Positions 46,387 to 50,202 of a DNA stretch of 64,000 bases are shown here, piece after piece. The translations under genes were made by a program, and so were the position numbers. How positions within the stretch are numbered: position 1 is the first letter of the stretch; each line of letters starts with the position of its first letter. The notes below the pieces were generated by a model. That model had not been told where the DNA came from, ran no database searches, and worked only from the letters and a program-made list of their open reading frames with translations. Origin of the DNA: Candidatus Nitrosymbiomonas proteolyticus (GTDB lineage Bacteria; Armatimonadota; Fimbriimonadia; Fimbriimonadales; Fimbriimonadaceae); NCBI GenBank assembly GCA_017347465.1, contig AP021858.1:930001-994000 (forward strand). The letters run 5' to 3'.

Positions 46387-47013
46387 GTGCGCGAAGGACA
46401 CATCGGAGTCGATGAAAGCGGGAAGGGGGACTTTTTCGGGCCGTTGGTCGTTGCCGCTTGCTACGTCGGCCCGGAGCACCTTGCCGAACTGGACGGCGTC
46501 CGGGACTCGAAAAAGCTGGCCGATGGCGTTGCGAAGAAGCTGGCCGCGACGATCAAGCGGACATGTCCGCACAAGGTCCTGACGATTCTTCCCCATAAAT
46601 ACAACGATCTCTATCGCCAGATCGGCAACCTCAACCGACTCCTTGCTTGGGGCCATGCGAGAGCGATCGAAGAGGTGTTGGAGCTCCAGCCCTGTTCTCA
46701 GGTGATCAGCGACCAGTTCGCGGACCCCGAAGTTCTGAAGCGCAGGCTGTTCGAAAAGGGCAAGCGGATCGAGCTCATCTCGATGGTCCGGGGCGAGCAA
46801 GACATCGCCGTCGCCGCCGCCTCGATCCTCGCCCGTGCGGAGTTCCTATGGCGCTTGGAGGCACTTTCGAAGGAGTTCGGCGTCGATCTCCCTAAGGGCG
46901 CGTCTCCGGCGGTCGTCGCCGCAGGAAAACGATTCGTCGAGCGGTACGGCCGGGAGGCCCTCGACAAGGTCGCAAAGCTGCATTTCAAGACCACGCACAA
47001 CGTGTTAGGTTGA
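46387..47013 (+). CDS. rnhC: ribonuclease HIII-like, without N-terminal TBP-like domain
   Basis: A 208-residue RNase H type 2 enzyme that cuts RNA in RNA/DNA hybrids. The opening GHIGVDESGKGDFFGPLVVA is the RNase HIII version of the family motif (RNase HII has DExGRG). Asp9/Glu10, Asp109 (VISDQFADP) and the acidic GEQDIAVAAASILARAEF supply the active-site set. Typical RNase HIII (~300 residues) has an ~80-residue TBP-like substrate-binding domain before this; here it is absent, and the upstream 40 bases to the divergent tgt leave no room for it. The start is GTG 46387. Confidence 0.88.
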   Translation: MREGHIGVDESGKGDFFGPLVVAACYVGPEHLAELDGVRDSKKLADGVAKKLAATIKRTCPHKVLTILPHKYNDLYRQIGNLNRLLAWGHARAIEEVLELQPCSQVISDQFADPEVLKRRLFEKGKRIELISMVRGEQDIAVAAASILARAEFLWRLEALSKEFGVDLPKGASPAVVAAGKRFVERYGREALDKVAKLHFKTTHNVLG

Positions 47014-47062: not shown

Positions 47063-47671
47063 ATGGTAGTGACGACGCTCGCGCTGGCCTTACTCATGGC
47101 GACCCCTGTTGAGGGAACTCAACGCCCGAACCTCCAACGCGCCGATCGCGGCGGAATCCAGGTCGGACAGGCCGCCAAGGACTTCGAGCTCAAATCGCTG
47201 GACGGCAAGTCCACCTTTAAACTGAGTTCGAACTACGGTAAGAAGCCGACCGTGCTGATCTTCGGCAGCTATACGTGACCGCCCTTCCGCGCCCAGGCGG
47301 GTGCGATCGAAAAGTGGTATCAGGCGACGAAGACGCAAGCGGACTTCTACATTGTCTACATTCGGGAGGCCCACCCCGAGGACGGACGGCAGGTGCAAGC
47401 CAACAGGCGCGACGGCGTGATCGTGAAGACCGCCAAGAGCGAAGAAGACCGCAAGGAGGCCGCCCAAGCCTGTTCAGTCGGACTCGAAGTCTCGCTGCCG
47501 ATGATCGTCGACGGCATGGACGATGCAGTCGAGAGAGCCTATCAGGGGTGGCCCGACCGCATCTACATCGTCGATCTAAAGGGAAACGTTTGGTATCGGA
47601 GCGCACAGGGACCTGCGGGTTTCAAGCCCGCTGAAGCCGAGCAATCGTTACGCAACCTGCTGAAAGGCTAA
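47063..47671 (+). CDS. deiodinase-like selenoprotein (in-frame UGA read as selenocysteine)
   Basis: A 202-residue thioredoxin-fold protein if TGA 47276-47278 (codon 72) is read as selenocysteine (Sec). The signal peptide is MVVTTLALALLMATPVEG. The sequence before the TGA, KPTVLIFGSYT, and after it, PPFRAQAGAIEKWYQ, gives GSYT-Sec-PPF, matching the GSCT-Sec-PPF active site of iodothyronine deiodinases. The match continues with ADFYIVYIREAHPEDG, LPMIVDGMDDAVERAY, WPDRIYIVDLKGNVWYRSAQ and GPAGFKPAE, all deiodinase-like along the whole domain. A 7-bp hairpin lies at 47288-47305. TAA stands in frame nine bases before ATG 47063, so the start is secure. Its stop overlaps the convergent tautomerase by 4 bases. 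Bacterial relatives are probably thiol/peroxide redox enzymes rather than hormone deiodinases. Confidence 0.87.
47276..47305 (+). promoter_or_regulatory. UGA selenocysteine codon and putative bacterial SECIS hairpin
   Basis: After TGA 47276-47278, CGCGCCC (47288-47294) pairs with GGGTGCG (47299-47305) in a 7-bp stem with one G-U pair and an AGGC apical loop. Sixteen bases separate the UGA from the loop-side end of the 5' arm, and G is the second loop base. Both features fit the general bacterial SECIS pattern. A competing 5-bp stem (47279-47283 with 47296-47300) is possible. Confidence 0.65.
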
Positions 47672-48045
47672 TCGCCGTCGAGTCCGATAGGCAGGACGGA
47701 GACGTACCCGTTCTCCGAAAGCTCCCGCACCTCCAGCGAGATCGCGGCCTCCTTTTCGCCGTACGACTTGCCGAAGCACTCGACCAGCGTAGCAAAGAGC
47801 ACCTCGCGGATCGATTCGATCAGTTCTGGGGTCCGGCCAGCCTTAATCAGCACCTGGCAGTGGACGAACCCTGGAGGGGCGCCCTCTCCCATCGACCAGT
47901 TGTTGTGGAGCGTGTGATAAGCCTTGATGCGGCGGGGACGCACCGATTCGAAGGCCCCGAGCTCATGCACAAGCTTTCCGAGGATGTCGGGGATGTCCAC
48001 GTTTTCAACGAGGTCGGCGCTGGTGATCAGATGAATGTGTGGCAT
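47668..48045 (-). CDS. 5-carboxymethyl-2-hydroxymuconate isomerase-like tautomerase
   Basis: A 125-residue protein of the tautomerase superfamily, CHMI branch. After removal of Met the N-terminus is PHIHLITSADLVENVDIPDI, leaving the catalytic Pro1. GKLVHELGAFESVRPRRIKA and GFVHCQVLIKAGRTPELIES carry the conserved Arg and the trimer-forming strand. HpaF of homoprotocatechuate degradation is the model, but no other aromatic-degradation gene is nearby, so the substrate is open. A GGGG-type ribosome site precedes the ATG. It overlaps the selenoprotein stop by 4 bases on the opposite strand. Confidence 0.85.
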   Translation of the reverse strand: MPHIHLITSADLVENVDIPDILGKLVHELGAFESVRPRRIKAYHTLHNNWSMGEGAPPGFVHCQVLIKAGRTPELIESIREVLFATLVECFGKSYGEKEAAISLEVRELSENGYVSVLPIGLDGD

Positions 48046-48732: not shown

Positions 48733-49653
48733 TCAAAGCAACGACTCTTGGAGCTTGACCTGACCGTTGCGCAGCAGATCAGGGTCTGAAAACCTTAGCT
48801 CCGAATCTCGGGCATACGACTCGTTGATTTCCACGCCCAGCCAACGCCGACCAAGAGTCTCGGCGACTGCTCCAGTCGTATTGCTACCCGCAAACGGGTC
48901 CAGCACAAGGTCGCCAGGGTCGGTGAGGAAACGAATGAAGAACCTGGGCAGCTCGGCCGGAAACCGGGCGGGGTGAATCTGGGTTCCTTTCTCCTTGGAC
49001 CCCCGAATGTAATTGCTATTGCTCTCGTTGTTTCCGCATTGGATCAGATTGCTGGGGATCGACCCGGCATTCTCGGACGTGAACGAGCTCTTGATTACGT
49101 GGCCCGACGGTCGCACGCTCTGCTTCACTCCCCTGGCGACAAGCCGCTGCATATCGCGGCTATACGGGAGAAGCACGTTGTTGTTGTTGGCCTTTGGTCG
49201 GGGTGTTTTCGAGAGCCAGAACAGGTATTCGACCGAATCCTTGACCCGGATTCGCTGAACGTTGACCCACTCGGCGGGCGCGGGCATCTTCGCCGGGTTG
49301 TACCAAAACATTTCCTGCGCGAGATGGAAGCCCACCTCGTCGCACAGGGCCAGAAGCAGGCGGAAGTGGTAAAGCGACCGAACGGGCTTTCCCGGCGTCC
49401 AGGCTCCACCAATGTTCAGAACGAAGCTGCCCTCGGGCTTGAGGATTCGCTTGATCTCGGCGGCGAACGGAAGCATCCAAGCGATGTATTCGTGCTGATC
49501 CGCGTTGCCATATTCCTTCTTGAAGTGCAGGGCGTACGGCGGCGAGGTCATCACGAGGTCCACCGACGCCTCTTTGAGCCCGCGCATGAAAGCCAAGCTG
49601 TCCGCGCAGTGCATCTCTCCGAGTTCCGTCTTATAGACCAGCAAGTCTTTCAT
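48733..49653 (-). CDS. type II DNA methyltransferase, N4-cytosine/N6-adenine class
   Basis: A 306-residue site-specific DNA methyltransferase. Motif IV is MTSPPYALH (TSPPY at residues 36-40), near the N-terminus, and the AdoMet motif [20 protein letters not shown] (252-) is near the C-terminus, so it is a beta-class permuted enzyme; TSPPY is typical of m4C methyltransferases such as M.PvuII. The conserved [20 protein letters not shown] and [20 protein letters not shown] segments also resemble that group. It follows the endonuclease gene with a 23-base overlap and would protect the host from it. The recognition sequence is unknown. The start is ATG 49651-49653. Confidence 0.93.
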
Positions 49654-50176
49654 AGGCGTCGATTGCGTCCTGTAATCTCCCAAACCAACGGACGGGTAAA
49701 CCTTCCTTGAGCGTGATCGGATGCAGAACCTGAAGCTTGTCCCCGTGGAGCTTGTGGGAAGGAAGCTCCATGCATAGCGCGTACCTGAACTCGCTCCATT
49801 CGCCCGTGGCCCTTCCCATACAGACGGCAACGAGATCGAAGTGGTCGCGGTTGTAGTATCGGCTCGATGGATCGCCCTTAGCGGCTCGGGTCTTCTGTAG
49901 CTCCACTTGCAGCTTGGGACCGTCGCGAACCGTTTTCACCTCAACCCTGATCTCCGTGTGCCTCAGCGTTTCCACGCTGAAATCGTGCTTTCCGTCGATG
50001 TCGAAGCCTTCGTAGCTGGAAAGCCATCCTTCTCGCGTCGCGACCTTCAGCTTGCGCTCGAAGTGGACCTCGGCCACCGCTCCCTCAAGAGCAACCTTCA
50101 GCCGGAATCTCCGGTTGATCGCATCGAGCAGTTCTTGAGCCGTCAGCCCATACTTGATCTCAAGGTCGTGCGGCAC
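49631..50176 (-). CDS. type II restriction endonuclease, PD-(D/E)xK-like
   Basis: A ~181-residue protein encoded just before, and overlapping, the methyltransferase. [20 protein letters not shown] then [20 protein letters not shown] gives the spaced acidic D...ExK core (VEVK) of many type II endonucleases. The rest ([38 protein letters not shown]) has no family I can name. I chose GTG 50176 because TATACT lies 7 bases before it; a GTG at 50197 extends the frame by seven codons but lies upstream of that promoter-like box. By eye the region is less GC-rich than its surroundings, in line with transfer. Confidence 0.82.
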
Positions 50177-50183
50177 TTGTGCC

Positions 50184-50189
50184 AGTATA
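50184..50189 (-). promoter_or_regulatory. -10-like box TATACT, 7 bases before the endonuclease GTG
   Basis: A near-consensus -10 close to the proposed start. A 10-base perfect palindrome GACACGTGTC lies at 50193-50202 immediately upstream, where a regulator could bind. Confidence 0.45.
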
Positions 50190-50192
50190 GCA

Positions 50193-50202
50193 GACACGTG
50201 TC
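50193..50202. repeat. perfect palindrome GACACGTGTC upstream of the restriction pair
   Basis: Ten-base perfect dyad centred on CACGTG, just upstream of the TATACT box of the endonuclease gene. Controller-type or self-methylation sites often sit here in type II systems; no controller gene is seen. Confidence 0.5.

Follow-up and report, generated by a model that had tools for sequence, protein, structure and literature searches.

A deiodinase-family selenoprotein gene in an Armatimonadota bacterium, with a candidate resolving cysteine 65 residues after selenocysteine

Animal deiodinases are the enzymes that process thyroid hormone. The locus described here, on plus-strand DNA of an Armatimonadota bacterium, raises the question of whether a UGA that interrupts a deiodinase-like reading frame is decoded as selenocysteine (Sec) and, if so, what kind of enzyme is made. 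Two open reading frames (47063-47278 and 47393-47671) share a frame and are halves of one protein; with TGA taken as Sec, the gene is open from ATG to TAA and encodes 202 residues, with Sec at position 72 (U72) in the active site FGSYTUPPF. An earlier note on the window (the whole 64,000-nucleotide stretch analysed) had proposed that the frames join only by UGA read-through, that GSYT-(UGA)-PPF is the deiodinase site with Tyr for Cys, and that the similarity continues downstream of the TGA. All three proposals hold: bridging the TGA yields a single protein whose match to the Pfam T4_deiodinase profile spans that codon, alignments to DIO3 and DIO2 bear out the active site, and the profile match and the DIO alignments both continue beyond it. 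The observation of a real deiodinase-family selenoprotein gene in this bacterium is thus confirmed, and it is a clear example of a gene that standard annotation would split or truncate. On inspection by eye, the remaining in-frame UGA candidates of the window were no more than read-through of ordinary stops. The features that bear on decoding are:

47063-47671, plus strand: deiodinase-like selenoprotein gene, 202 amino acids and TAA (genome position G000:C1:977063-977668)
47276-47278, plus strand: in-frame UGA, the Sec codon, residue 72, in GSYT-Sec-PPF; the TGA column is common to the close homologues and CP054189.1
47288-47305, plus strand: putative bacterial SECIS hairpin, with a 7-bp stem (CGCGCCC/GGGUGCG) and the apical loop AGGC (47295-47298), which contains a G

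A match at 1e-12 or below was found in 27 of 291 Armatimonadota genomes, and the Sec forms among them number 24 genes in 22 genomes: a main group of 15 (including the window gene, one same-species copy and three tandem genes in G031), six genes in G182-G187 and G275, and three distant ones (G249, G164 and G156). Cys homologues, which the earlier note had advised looking for, do occur in more distant relatives (G263, G264, G273, G276 and G281, with FGSxSCPVF or FGCITCPVY), and a second G144 gene is also a Cys form. Of 398 genomes sampled from a second phylum, the one to which the gammaproteobacterial locus L054 belongs, six gave matches, all of them Cys forms with GSYSCPHH, ASYSCPHH or GCYTCPVF. 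Cys forms are present in the phylum of G291. No homologue was found in a search of plasmid and phage relatives and viral contigs. The contig search that also returned the same species gave a gammaproteobacterial thioredoxin-like protein (FICNHC), which lies outside the family.

Within the Armatimonadota the TGA is conserved. All 20 close homologues, the second assembly of the species included, keep it at the aligned position, and each of the strong matches among 151 relatives has exactly one TGA, which is the active-site codon in every case except the second G144 gene. The nearest named record, CP054189.1 (a Chthonomonadaceae MAG, Armatimonadota), holds a copy 98% identical and is that second assembly. 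No other codon appears in this sequence, which still reads TGA at the 47276 position, and its downstream codon changes are 12 synonymous to 3 non-synonymous. The homologues in relatives, checked for frameshifted pseudogenes, proved to be intact and to share the in-frame TGA.

Two of the homologous loci deserve mention in their own right. The second G144 homologue (G144:C240, L050:1057-2001, minus strand; also L094) has Cys in its active site (GSCTCPRF) and, seven residues past it, a TGA (QRY-TGA-DKATF) at a position that is Lys or Arg in other members; this TGA probably reflects a mutation or an error of assembly, not a Sec codon. By eye, the N-terminal part of the same protein resembles repeated heavy-metal-associated domains. 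In the tandem array of G031 (G031:C134:3040-4948; L056, L049), all three deiodinase-like selenoprotein genes carry a TGA of their own. Lipobox-like N-termini are seen in two of them, and UGPF replaces UPPF in one.

The Sec machinery, which had earlier been inferred for this lineage, was found in full by a search of the host genome (2.81 Mb, a single contig, 99% complete). It comprises selB, selA and selD, which score 354, 446 and 350 bits respectively, and one tRNA-Sec of 74 bits with the anticodon TCA, which ARAGORN also calls as SeC (tca); all four exceed their curated cut-offs. Since selD (G000:C1:749280-750185, minus strand) itself carries a TGA for U in its active-site motif CAGUAAK, it is a second selenoprotein gene in the genome. 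Across the survey, selB exceeds its cut-off in 21 of the 22 Sec-form genomes and in none of the five genomes with Cys forms only (Fisher p ~7e-5, kinship ignored), against a background rate of 82 in 151 relatives. The sole Sec-form genome without selB above the cut-off, G095, is an assembly 88% complete in 320 contigs, and the genus-mate G001 has neither a deiodinase-like gene nor selB above the cut-off.

Taken with the conserved codon, these findings strongly support, to near certainty, that the UGA at 47276 is decoded as Sec by SelB with Sec-tRNA(UCA) and the downstream hairpin. Mechanistically, SelB and the charged tRNA would read the UGA with the aid of the hairpin directly downstream. For the UGA to be a true stop, in a Cys gene that has decayed or been wrongly sequenced, there is the stop codon itself and nothing further; such a reading is highly improbable given that 20 close homologues from many genera share the TGA, that the codons beyond it show a purifying pattern, and that the machinery is complete. 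Decoding as Trp or another amino acid, through an altered code or a suppressor, would account for the open frame and for nothing else. It is scarcely credible, since TGA serves as an ordinary stop more often than any other codon in the window, ending 25 of the 54 predicted genes, so that the genetic code is unchanged, since the tRNA with a TCA anticodon is tRNA-Sec, and since the Cys-form homologues have Cys at the position of residue 72.

The hairpin itself is probably a SECIS element of the bacterial kind, which is characterized by a small apical loop with a G (PMC1088965). The structure noted earlier turns out to be real but modest. In the window gene, its region is more stable than protein-preserving codon shuffles (p = 0.018). 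Over 23 Sec-form genes the same shuffles gave a mean z of -1.0 and a Stouffer value of -4.8, a sum that overstates significance because the genes are related; control windows that began 45 and 60 nt away from the UGA gave +1.9 and +0.5. When 61 nt of the window gene alone were tested by dinucleotide shuffling, the result was not significant (z -0.9), and Rfam at its gathering thresholds returned no match in the window. Counting pairs in a fixed register gave only weak and unconvincing covariation, owing to a stem register that varies by one or two bases between genes; the G031 and G048 genes, for example, have the hairpin in a different register.

Turning to the protein, its family membership is well defined. 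The joined protein, once aligned to the T4_deiodinase profile as the earlier note had recommended, matched it (PF00837) over residues 34-196 at 97.8 bits (E 7.8e-28; gathering cut-off 27), with weaker Pfam matches to AhpC-TSA and Redoxin, and the only strong matches in a PDB sequence search were mouse DIO3 (4.9e-20) and DIO2 (1.2e-15). An AlphaFold2 model built from 14 family members (mean pLDDT 87.9) has the fold of the DIO catalytic domain. The two solved structures ranked first against it were mouse DIO2 (Z 22.5, 174 residues aligned, rmsd 3.0) and DIO3 (Z 21.8, 178 residues aligned, rmsd 5.1), followed by AhpE (Z 18.4) and ResA-type proteins (about 18).

The proton network reported for DIO1 and DIO3 (PMC9141512, PMC12025243) is largely retained in the active site. 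Its retained residues correspond to Ser69, Thr71, Tyr99 and Glu102, all invariant or nearly so in the family alignment A1, with Glu102 aligned to DIO1 Glu156 and DIO3 Glu200. The relay His (DIO1 His174, DIO3 His219) is Ala in the window protein and His, Pro or Ala across the family; the DIO1 mutant H174A remains active (PMC9141512). Also missing is the proximal Cys found two residues before Sec in DIO1 and DIO3, where the window protein has Tyr70; DIO2 likewise has no proximal Cys (PMC9141512). Two further sites are relevant here:

47366-47374, plus strand: Glu102-Ala-His104, equivalent to the deiodinase EAH, invariant in alignment A1 and aligned with DIO3 and DIO2
47471-47473, plus strand: TGT codon of Cys137, a candidate resolving thiol 65 residues after Sec and the only cysteine of the domain

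Since Tyr70 replaces the proximal Cys of DIO1 and DIO3, Cys137 was proposed as the thiol that resolves the oxidised Sec. In the AlphaFold model it lies in a predicted helix (127-141) ahead of a strand (147-149). A cysteine census of 20 close Sec forms, from which the near-identical same-species copy was left out, found Cys at +65 in 19, and in 14 of those 19 it is the only cysteine of the domain. The one close Sec form that lacks it, G018, is also the only one to carry a Cys at the proximal -2 position, a single swap event. Among the distant Sec forms, G249 has Cys in the aligned column, while G164 and G156 do not, and nor does any of the nine aligned Cys forms. In DIO1, proximal Cys124 bonds with residue 126, and mutating the distal Cys was without clear effect (PMC9141512). 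In the animal enzymes the distal Cys comes about seven aligned residues after the column of Cys137, so the two are different positions. A mapping of Cys137 onto the resolving Cys of E. coli Tpx was also attempted, but the profile comparison aligned only the N-terminal half and the analogy was not confirmed.

A near-invariant +65 Cys paired with Sec suggests how the enzyme is recharged. In the proposed cycle, the Sec72 selenolate, held in the network of Ser69, Thr71, Tyr99 and Glu102, would attack an electrophile such as a peroxide or another reducible compound and become oxidised. From its helix ahead of the next core strand, Cys137 would then attack the oxidised Sec72, forming a selenenyl-sulfide that would be reduced either by an extracytoplasmic thioredoxin or by a membrane thiol relay of the CcdA/DsbD type. 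Judged from conservation, the chances that Cys137 resolves Sec72 in this manner, with that route of reduction, are about even. Extended to the family, the proposal becomes slightly more tentative: bacterial deiodinase-family selenoproteins may recycle through Sec and a distal helix Cys at +65 that is exchangeable with the -2 Cys of the DIO1/DIO3 type.

In a different account, the enzyme would work with its one Sec, be recycled directly by an external thiol, and use Cys137 for structure. The distant Sec forms G164 and G156 are compatible with this, as they have no other cysteine in the domain, and so is the presence of AhpE, a 1-Cys peroxiredoxin, among the closest folds. It is nonetheless unlikely, because Cys137 is near-invariant in the Sec forms and absent from the nine aligned Cys forms, and because it has been exchanged for a -2 Cys in G018. 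Recycling through Cys137 is part of the preferred explanation. As a separate observation, the active-site sequence of G164 and G156 (L091, L092) is FGSYTUPITN.

The likely location of the protein follows from its N-terminus:

47063-47119, plus strand: probable N-terminal signal peptide, MVVTTLALALLMATPVEG, seen in the sequence, with the charged n-region absent

The homologues have typical signal-peptide or lipobox-like N-termini. Together with the hydrophobic N-terminus of the window protein, they make it quite likely that the protein resides outside the cytoplasm. The host genome encodes one DsbD_TM protein, a possible supplier of electrons.

The gene neighbourhood provides little further guidance:

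46387-47013, plus strand: upstream neighbour of the ribonuclease HII/HIII family (Pfam RNase_HII), with its TGA stop 49 nt upstream of the gene
47668-48045, minus strand: downstream convergent neighbour of the CHMI family (5-carboxymethyl-2-hydroxymuconate isomerase; Pfam CHMI, 43 bits)

The neighbours as a whole comprise GH57, TGT, RNase HII family, CHMI, GNAT and DNA methylase genes. In the neighbourhood comparison, the RNase HII family gene was not conserved beside homologues, and no functional link was found for CHMI. A conserved operon partner was sought around the homologues and none emerged beyond a gene order common to G091, G095 and G097, which belong to one family. Since the neighbours are not conserved, they give no hint of a substrate. 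Further along the window (48736-50197, minus strand), the DNA methylase (N6_N4_Mtase) adjoins a 188-residue protein without a Pfam match, and the two are possibly a restriction-modification pair.

With these data in mind, the protein is probably a peroxiredoxin-like reductase that is exported and recycled by thiols, and not an iodothyronine deiodinase; belonging to the deiodinase fold family is not enough to make it an enzyme of thyroid hormone. A reductive dehalogenase acting on small halogenated aromatics, such as iodo- or bromo-tyrosine or phenols, in which Sec takes the halogen in the manner of the animal deiodinases and thiols recycle it, would agree with the family, the fold and the retention of most of the proton network, including Thr71, the equivalent of the essential DIO1 Thr125, which is T throughout alignment A1 except in G095. 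This alternative is decidedly doubtful, since the relay His is Ala and variable in the family (though the activity of DIO1 H174A softens that point), the residue matching the DIO3 Arg before Gly-Pro is unconserved in alignment A1, and no shared neighbour gene indicates halogen metabolism. The explanation preferred as a whole, to which we assign a probability of roughly 70%, is that the gene encodes an exported Sec-Cys counterpart of an atypical 2-Cys peroxiredoxin, within the deiodinase family and on the thioredoxin/peroxiredoxin fold.

How much of this is new can be judged from related systems. Prokaryotic deiodinase-like selenoproteins were reported in 2005 from the Sargasso Sea metagenome, in Sec and Cys forms and with a proposed redox function (PMC1088965). 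Like the window protein, they are bacterial PF00837 proteins, and a bacterial SECIS lies downstream, as it probably does in the window gene. The NCBIfam model NF038285 (deiodinase_rel, 347 positions) matches window residues 30-197 at 207.1 bits, below its cut-off of 250, and only over model positions 174-341, the window protein lacking the N-terminal half. Given the 2005 report and this model, the kind of protein is already known. The N-terminal half of NF038285 is long, and the G117 and G144 homologues (L029, L030) have a long helical N-terminal extension. Reviews describe the prokaryotic family by the motif UxxC, with a function that is largely unknown (PMC9312934, PMC13188914), whereas the window protein has UPPF, with no Cys at +3 and its candidate partner at +65; it also comes from the Armatimonadota, a phylum unmentioned in the 2026 review.

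Comparison with the animal enzymes and with peroxiredoxins is similarly mixed. DIO1-3 (solved structures 4tr3 and 9h48) share the fold (Z 21.8-22.5), Sec-Pro-Pro-Phe, the Ser/Thr/Tyr/Glu network and the EAHP.DG loop. However, the position of the proximal Cys of DIO1 and DIO3 is Tyr in the window protein and Ala in DIO2, the relay His is unconserved, the distal Cys is elsewhere, and the protein is bacterial, predicted to be exported, and encoded by a gene whose hairpin adjoins the UGA. Peroxiredoxins of the atypical 2-Cys (Tpx) type belong to the same fold class, and their resolving Cys in the helix before a core strand would be analogous, but the sequence similarity is weak and limited to the N-terminal half, and the window protein has the deiodinase insertion. 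The literature searched contained no description of the UPPF motif combined with Cys at +65, of the association of that pattern with Sec forms, or of the apparent exchange with the proximal Cys. What looks new is the combination of Tyr in place of the proximal Cys with a near-invariant +65 Cys that is usually the only cysteine of the domain.

Bacterial deiodinase-like selenoproteins have been known for twenty years and still lack a function. Since this branch is small, probably exported and mostly endowed with one cysteine besides Sec, its Sec-thiol chemistry can be tested free of competing cysteines. The findings are relevant to the distal cysteine of animal deiodinases, whose role is unsettled, and to the role of the family where thyroid hormone is absent. 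If the proposed recycling is true, the exchange between the +65 and -2 cysteines would represent two evolutionary solutions within one family for recycling an oxidised selenoenzyme.
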